Of a stretch of 64,000 nt of DNA, positions 45,607-46,214 are shown one piece after another (the first letter of the stretch is position 1; every line of letters starts with the position of its first letter). Source of the stretch: Saccharothrix algeriensis (GTDB lineage Bacteria > Actinomycetota > Actinomycetes > Mycobacteriales > Pseudonocardiaceae); the NCBI RefSeq assembly GCF_016907655.1, contig NZ_JAFBCL010000001.1, positions 2,452,001-2,516,000 of the forward strand, given 5' to 3'. Under the pieces are notes generated by a model. It saw nothing but the letters and a program-made list of their open reading frames with translations. It had not been told where the DNA came from and did not search any database. Both the position numbers and the translations under genes were made by a program.

Positions 45607-45677
45607 GACGGGCCGCCCGGGAAGGGCGGGCCGCCCGGCTTTGGGGTTTTCGGCACGCCCCGTGCAGACCGGTCTCT

Positions 45678-45805
45678 TCGTGTTCTCCCCGTATGGCCTG
45701 CCCGGAGGGCTACCATGCTTTTCCTGGGGGTGCAAGCACGCTTTTCGCTTGCACCCCCAGGAAAAGCATGGTCGTCTTTAGACAGGCCATGCGGGGAGAA
45801 CACGA
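45678..45805 (+). repeat. nested palindromic element A
   Basis: Outer arms 45678-45700 and 45783-45805 (23 nt, one T-G wobble) enclose inner arms 45712-45737 and 45747-45772 (26 nt, no mismatch) around the 9-nt loop ACGCTTTTC (45738-45746). The loop-closing bases are CAAGC/GCTTG. It is less GC-rich than neighbouring genes, with no open frame of note. Confidence 0.92.
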
Positions 45806-45972
45806 CCGCTCTTGCTCTTCCTCCTCCTTGGCGGCCTGCCCGTCCGGCGAGGACTCTTTTCATCTTTTCAGCTTAGATCCATACGGCCCCGAATCTCACC
45901 CAGATCCGTGCAGGTCAGAGGTATGAAGGGCGGCCGAGAGGCCCCCAAGGAGGAGGAAAAGAAAGAGCGGTC
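45804..45972. repeat. central inverted repeat C joining elements A and B
   Basis: Arms 45804-45831 and 45945-45972 (28 nt, two mismatches) carry CTTCCTCCTCCTTGG and its complement. They are continuous with the right outer arm of A and left outer arm of B, so A, C and B make one larger inverted arrangement around a unique core (about 45837-45936). Confidence 0.88.
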
Positions 45973-46103
45973 GTGTTCCCCTCCCCGCACGGCCTGCCGA
46001 AGGCAATCACGTTTGTCGGGGGGCGTCAAGCGAAGAGCGTGCTTGACACCCCCCGACAAACGTGATCGGGCTGCGCCCAGGCCGTACGGGGAGGGGAACA
46101 CGA
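45971..46103 (-). repeat. nested palindromic element B
   Basis: Outer arms 45971-45996 and 46078-46103 (26 nt, one mismatch) enclose inner arms 46006-46031 and 46041-46066 (26 nt, one mismatch) around the 9-nt loop GAAGAGCGT on the plus strand, i.e. ACGCTCTTC on the minus strand. Both mismatches are C-A on the plus strand and G-U on the minus strand. It is homologous to element A in inverted orientation, with different but self-complementary stem sequence. Confidence 0.92.
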
Positions 46104-46214
46104 AGGCACCGGTATGTGCACGAGGTGCAGCACGGCTGCGTGAAGCGTGCCGGGTGCGGTGCTCCCGCGTGAACCGCGAAAAAGGGCGGTGGTCGTTCGT
46201 GCGCGGGCGAGCGC

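Follow-up and report, generated by a model that had tools for sequence, protein, structure and literature searches.

Behind glgC, and facing the end of a convergent methyltransferase gene, the window (the whole stretch of 64,000 nucleotides analysed here) carries an inverted repeat of about 430 bases, of which the same genome holds more than one hundred copies. We favour, with about even confidence, the explanation that this is a new type of mobile repeat, non-autonomous and similar to the REPINs, which an as yet hypothetical enzyme would move in trans, the substrate probably being a folded single strand. If true, about a third of the genomes in a large family carry a class of palindromic repeats without the transposase of the REPINs. 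Moreover, the copies within one genome represent a rich natural set of compensated stem changes that can tell selection for pairing from arm-to-arm copying, and a 19-nt core offers a handle for finding the enzyme.

The initial annotation had described two nested hairpin elements, A and B, at positions 45678-46103, and an inverted-repeat check recovers all four of the claimed inverted repeats at the coordinates given for them. Rather than two elements, A and B make up one repeat, each being an inverted half of it: an inverted-repeat search identifies them as inverted relatives of each other (arms of 94 nt, 70%), and over 450 nt the repeat agrees with its own reverse complement at about 70%. Besides this relationship, the annotation had missed the third stem formed by the interval between A and B (45795-45837/45939-45981) and the two mini-hairpins that flank each inner stem, in A as well as in B. 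The repeat is built from the following parts:

45665-45688, plus strand: left terminal arm of the repeat, pairing with 46093-46116 (24 nt, 83%); closing stem in the RNA and DNA folds, similar in other copies
45678-45805, plus strand: unit A, four-way-junction hairpin, from inverted repeats, fold and covariation; covariance model 144.8 bits on the plus and 110.6 on the minus strand
45678-45700, plus strand: 5' arm of the A outer stem; 3' arm at 45783-45805 (23 nt, 96%)
45700-45710, plus strand: left mini-hairpin of A, GCCC-GGA-GGGC; pairing in 100% of aligned cells, two-sided changes in 2 of 4 pairs
45712-45772, plus strand: A inner stem of 26 bp, arms 45712-45737/45747-45772 (26 nt, 100%), 9-nt loop ACGCTTTTC at 45738-45746; 100 copies compared
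45774-45783, plus strand: right mini-hairpin of A, GTC-TTTA-GAC; 1 of 3 pairs with two-sided changes
45795-45981, plus strand: middle stem joining A and B, arms 45795-45837/45939-45981 (91%), in the RNA and DNA folds
45826-45856, plus strand: core box of unit A, with the 19-mer CTGCCCGTCCGGCGAGGAC at 45836-45854; can form GTCC-GGCGA-GGAC
45922-45952, minus strand: putative core box of unit B, inverted and degenerate, proposed from its likeness to the second inverted core of the S. tamanrassetensis locus L108
45971-46103, minus strand: unit B, four-way-junction hairpin, inverted, from inverted repeats, fold and covariation; outer arms 45971-45996/46078-46103 (26 nt, 96%); covariance model 147.8 bits on the minus and 101.6 on the plus strand
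45996-46004, minus strand: mini-hairpin of B, GCC-GAA-GGC as read on the plus strand; letters checked, helix of the unit alignment
46006-46066, minus strand: B inner stem of 26 bp, arms 46006-46031/46041-46066 (26 nt, 96%), 9-nt loop at 46032-46040; 82 copies compared
46068-46078, minus strand: mini-hairpin of B, GGGC-TGC-GCCC as read on the plus strand; letters checked, helix of the unit alignment
46093-46116, plus strand: right terminal arm of the repeat, partner of the left arm 45665-45688

Folded as RNA, the 461-nt stretch containing the repeat reaches -318.8 kcal/mol, compared with -184.8 (sd 6.0) in 100 shuffles (z -22.3), and folding as DNA gives a z of -22.0. Each unit consists of a hairpin followed by the core box CCTTGGCGGCCTGCC[CT]GTCCGGCGAGGACTC. 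In an alignment of 62 distinct units, 44 from the own genome and 18 from genus mates, unit length ranges from 128 to 134 nt, and the four helices can be drawn as a four-way junction: the outer stem (22 aligned pairs), a mini-hairpin with the loop GCA or GGA, the 26-bp inner stem with its 9-nt loop (ACGCTTTTC and variants), and a second mini-hairpin, mostly GYC-TYY-GRC. A covariance model built from these units detects A and B on both strands of the window, with higher scores on the strand read from hairpin to core, plus one marginal match; from Rfam 15, no family reaches its gathering score in the window, and below the cut-off only microRNA hairpin models appear. Repeat and core are bordered by T-rich heptads such as CTTTTGG or CTTTTGATCTTTT (window positions 45640-45665, the flanks of other copies, and the core tails in L126, L128, and L129), and the hairpin loop ACGCTTTTC resembles them.

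The repeat is abundant in its own genome. With up to 3 mismatches, the 31-nt core box has 104 matches in 6.88 Mb, 47 and 57 by strand, as opposed to 0 for the reversed control, and the best 40 of 152 candidates in a DNA search comprise the window place and, at 87 to 92% identity, 39 others. Among the 101 core matches fetched for comparison, 82 copies have the common B hairpin, 8 another one, and 8 no B hairpin in the stretch read, while 2 are interrupted and 1 is left unassigned; this tally includes a reading over 420 nt of the 18 copies below the stem B score (8 with another hairpin, 8 with none, 2 interrupted), and the best stem obtained for L100 was an unrelated one. The layout of pairs in this genome is core-inside, that is, A, core, degenerate core, B. 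Units also occur singly, both here and in relatives, five genus mates have core-outside pairs with inverted ends (19 loci aligned), and in other genera the core adjoins other hairpins. The core itself varies, reading GCGC-GGCGA-GCGC in L111. For the 89 copies that have a near-full match, identity to the nearest relative does not exceed 97.8% (median 95.3%), a difference of at least 2.2% (median 4.7%), which gives no sign of a burst in progress. At the right end of several copies (e.g. L012, L015, L022, and L036), tandem duplications of about 30 nt follow, and a second right-end type carries a GC-rich tract.

Beyond this genome, the core is widespread within the Pseudonocardiaceae, a large family known for antibiotics. 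Of 390 family genomes, 124 carry the exact 19-mer CTGCCCGTCCGGCGAGGAC, in up to 68 exact copies, and they represent 25 of 46 genera; among 24 genus mates, 10 lack it. In a sample of the phylum, its only hit among 396 genomes is the own genome, and the exact core was not found in viral contigs. Among named genomes, a 27-nt core pattern is found in Saccharothrix tamanrassetensis only, a member of the same genus, in five stretches, in a comparison from which the window's own records may be left out.

According to the initial annotation, many further copies with covarying pairs would support a structured family. Such copies exist: the covariance model matches at least 150 hairpins in the own genome, and paired positions change together. 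Across 55 pairs and 62 units, 99.5% of 3397 cells are paired, compared with 38 to 44% in slid controls. Two-sided changes occur in 31 of 55 pairs, against a mean of 22.3 in shuffles (0 of 500 as high) and 5 to 11 in slid controls, and in 554 cells, where shuffles average 166; some of the excess is due to the structure having been drawn from the same 62 related sequences. Inner stem A, compared in 100 of the 101 copies (L104 is cut off), has 2582 Watson-Crick, 10 G.U, and 8 mismatched cells. Inner stem B, compared in 82 copies and located by complementarity, so that badly broken stems could be missed, has 2129 Watson-Crick, 3 G.U, and 0 mismatched of 2132 cells, with 26 further pair types. Single-letter changes private to one copy are few in all parts (0.5 to 5.5 per 1000 cells), and the mismatch-free stem B is consequently weaker evidence than it appears.

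Sequence is conserved in the loop, the bases near it, the mini-hairpins, and the outer stem, while the middle of the inner stem varies yet pairs. In the mobile-repeat model, the enzyme would bind a single strand at its conserved parts, namely loop, mini-hairpins, outer stem, and core, so that the middle of the inner stem would need pairing only. Units would be swapped between copies by recombination, and mismatched stems would be lost by selection, by arm-to-arm template copying, or by both.

The mismatches that do occur distinguish the two strands. On the hairpin-to-core strand, G.U accounts for 93 cells in 13 columns and A.C for 2 cells, each in a different column (by column, binomial p 0.004, with the kinship of units ignored); other mismatches amount to 15 cells in 6 columns. 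Since change that is neutral in the duplex should give equal G.U and A.C, the G.U excess points to selection on a folded single strand, and such a strand, either RNA or DNA, is likely under selection as judged from the sequence comparison. Of the two origins offered in the initial annotation, selection for structure or a copying process that conserves palindromes, the excess of G.U over A.C on one strand favours selection on the single strand, and stems that reassort and yet stay paired favour copying.

The pairing could also be a purely mutational product, which we regard as the least probable of the alternatives considered here. According to this explanation, structure is not selected at all, template switching between the arms in replication keeps the palindromes perfect, and compensated changes are a by-product. 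Template switching can make and mend hairpins, as described in the available part of one source (PMC8794818), and stem B shows the corresponding pattern: a minimum spanning tree of its 25 fully paired alleles contains 49 two-sided changes, a number that recombination of alleles could lower, of which 19 are transversions unable to pass through G.U, and no mismatched intermediate is present among the 82 copies. However, neither the conserved loop, mini-hairpins, outer stems, and core nor the G.U excess are explained in this way, and stem A retains one-sided private changes and chimeric arms. Stem A alleles seen once comprise seven non-paired and two two-sided ones, so that recent changes are mostly one-sided, which argues against rapid arm-to-arm copying, and the stems A of L033 and L067 are the arms of two alleles joined.

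Stem A also appears to move independently of the remainder of its copy. In 81 copies, its allele shows no association with stem B (234 of 2000 shuffles equal or exceed the observed value), with the right-end type (292 of 2000), or with the 14 nt following the core (283 of 2000), in a test whose power is modest given the many alleles. Stem B goes together with its own right end (0 of 2000 shuffles as high), with right ends sorted by a simple string rule, but not with the 14 nt after the core (1277 of 2000). Of the position pairs, 15 out of 91 in stem B and 5 out of 28 in stem A show all four combinations. The independence of stem A alleles from the rest of the same copy indicates that hairpins likely reassort, and from these allele patterns, together with the joined arms in L033 and L067, an exchange of hairpin cassettes between copies is likely. 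A farther-reaching version of the mobile-repeat model, which we put forward tentatively and hold to be clearly less probable than the model itself, states that the folded hairpin, and not its sequence, is inherited: cassettes would be exchanged among more than 100 copies, the inner stem would be rewritten on both arms by arm-to-arm copying of a folded single strand, and a single-strand-specific enzyme of the Pseudonocardiaceae would insert the repeat behind gene ends.

Placement of the copies relative to genes, which were called by a codon-usage script, is strongly biased. Nearly all copies lie between predicted genes, and behind the left gene the median spacing to its stop codon is 71 nt (n=67). 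After removal of 10 insertion-sequence loci and 2 edge loci from the 101 copies, the context of the remaining 89 is convergent in 42, co-directional in 41, and divergent in 6, compared with expectations of 14, 49, and 26 derived from the window's intergenic bases; with all 101 kept, 45 are convergent, 27 and 18 co-directional, 8 divergent, and 3 at an edge.

This bias lends weight to the explanation that ranks next after the mobile repeat, namely a structured RNA of 3' untranslated regions that ends transcription or protects mRNA, with one unit per convergent gene and pairing kept by selection on the RNA. We consider it possible, though on balance unlikely. At least one neighbouring gene points at the copy in 83 of the 89 cases, and the short distance behind the left stop codon, the excess of G.U over A.C on one strand, and the very stable fold are all in line with an RNA function. 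Single units, however, are little oriented with respect to transcription. In 28 of them (8 from the own genome and 20 from relatives; five S. tamanrassetensis loci, at least four with two hairpins, were left out), the hairpin-side gene points towards the unit in 12 and away in 9 cases, the core-side gene towards it in 15 and away in 9, the remainder having no called gene. A strand-specific terminator is thus rejected, which leaves single-strand DNA or an independent transcript. Further, some copies (L110, L059, and L120) already lie beyond a terminator-like hairpin, as judged by eye.

Comparison among species speaks partly for and partly against such an RNA. Behind glgC, none of the 24 genus mates has a core (up to 3 mismatches) within 1.5 kb, so that among these the window copy is specific to its own genome, which fits a mobile repeat; the convergent methyltransferase end is kept 11 to 356 bp from glgC in 10 of them, has a far match only in 2, and none in 12. 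The lack of the repeat behind the same gene, together with the lack of the exact core in 10 of the 24 genomes, argues against a structured 3' RNA. In its favour, 1 of 8 S. tamanrassetensis loci matches one of the 101 own loci on both flanks (L120 and L059, about 1.5 kb of flank), and this copy has nearly identical outer stems and internal loops and inner stems that differ and are each still paired, within a spacer that is not alignable. A copy kept in place in two species also fits a host function. Core boxes on either side of the same hisS neighbourhood were seen in two genus mates (L139 and L140, on contig C191 of G223 and contig C1 of G172), and from these hisS-flanking cores some copies may keep their place between species.

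A site for chromosome topology or protein binding, analogous to the BIMEs, is a further and rather improbable alternative; it could for example be a putative gyrase site relieving supercoils between convergent genes, with hairpins that would extrude as cruciforms. It would account for the preference for convergent gene pairs and for palindromes whose length is fixed at 26 bp across copies, and BIMEs and REPs are described as protein-binding sites in the portions of literature consulted. Duplex DNA, on the other hand, provides no reason for G.U over A.C on one strand, and the repeat is patchy among species of one genus.

For a mobile repeat, we searched for candidate movers. The Y1 (RAYT) transposase family PF01797 has 0 matches in the own genome, a single contig with completeness given as 90%, and is absent from 15 of 16 further genomes including 9 of 10 core-rich ones, with 5 of 14 controls positive; it is present in 1 of 10 other core-rich genomes and, having no match in the own genome, was rejected as the mover. 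A Y2 transposase was likewise rejected, with no match in the own genome and a marginal one in 1 of 9 other core-rich genomes (control genomes are also silent), as was a reverse transcriptase, with none in the own genome and presence in 4 of 9 others. An autonomous version is not apparent either: two genus mates have pairs of cores separated by 4.4 and 5.1 kb, and the interval holds hisS with adjacent genes, which are housekeeping genes, and no mobile gene. Moreover, the flanks common to the copies fade into T-rich and tandem tracts, no exact empty site could be aligned, and a target duplication is not definable, which speaks against the mobile reading.

Within 1.5 kb of the 101 copies, no gene recurs except that of an insertion sequence; other neighbouring genes recur only in pairs of loci, as would fit a mobile repeat. 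The insertion sequence, which encodes a DDE_3 transposase and which we take to be of IS630 type, lies beside or inside 9 of 101 copies (L033, L036, L047, L049, L055, L067, L077, L085, and L098). In 7 of the 100 stem A copies (L033, L036, L047, L067, L077, L085, and L098), the same end of the element lies directly against one particular TA in the outer stem (CCCCGTA|TGG), identifying the repeat as a preferred target. The element was therefore rejected as partner of the repeat: it encodes a DDE_3 protein, inserts into the repeat, and uses it as a target. Targeting of REPs by other insertion sequences is described in the accessible part of an earlier report (PMC1525189).

Compared with known systems, the repeat is closest in kind to the REPINs, i.e. 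REP doublets with a RAYT, and nevertheless distinct from them. As far as the available part of the REPIN study goes (PMC3116915), both are interspersed and extragenic, occur as inverted pairs and single units, and have conserved ends, a middle with compensatory changes, and a predicted hairpin or clover fold. That the annotator knew of no described family with such a nested design, with 26-nt arms and a 9-nt loop, stands insofar as we found no description of the repeat in the open-access literature; the pattern of compensated stems, in contrast, has a precedent in the REPIN spacers of the same study, again within the part available. The REP palindrome is short, 20 to 40 bp in the excerpts of a second study (PMC3733652), whereas the unit here has 128 to 134 nt and a four-way junction. 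The repeat further differs in its separate 31-nt core box and in the lack of a Y1 transposase found in its genome, and the alignment of 62 units, which reaches few bases beyond the outer stem, shows no GTAG or CGTC tag at the foot of that stem. Membership among the REPINs thus fails on transposase, tag, size, and fold. CGTC-tagged REPs are similarly palindromic, present in many copies, mostly dimers, and without a known mover; according to the same excerpts (PMC3733652), they are short single palindromes from five phyla that do not include Actinobacteria. Their tag is described there as unpaired, whereas here CGTC lies inside the core, in a predicted short stem.

Enterobacterial BIMEs, as far as the sources consulted describe them, share the mosaic of palindromic repeats, the alternating orientation, and the high copy number, and differ from the window repeat in sequence and size. 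BIMEs lie behind genes. MITEs are short, non-coding elements with inverted ends that derive from DNA transposons. The terminal inverted repeats (24 nt, 83%) are similar to theirs, and the core-outside form of the genus mates has long inverted ends; no target duplication is defined here, and within 1.5 kb of the 101 copies no parent transposon was found, though one may lie elsewhere.

Among published repeats of actinobacteria, the RepRanger report (PMC12306157) has, in its available part, one passage on Actinomycetota with three species, none from the genera of interest here. In the accessible sections of the Kutzneria albida genome paper (PMC4210621), inverted repeats of 432 and 323 bp with 69 to 70% identity are described around two genomic islands. 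Given that the window repeat matches its own reverse complement to a comparable degree over a comparable length, these could be copies of such a repeat, which we note as a lead only.
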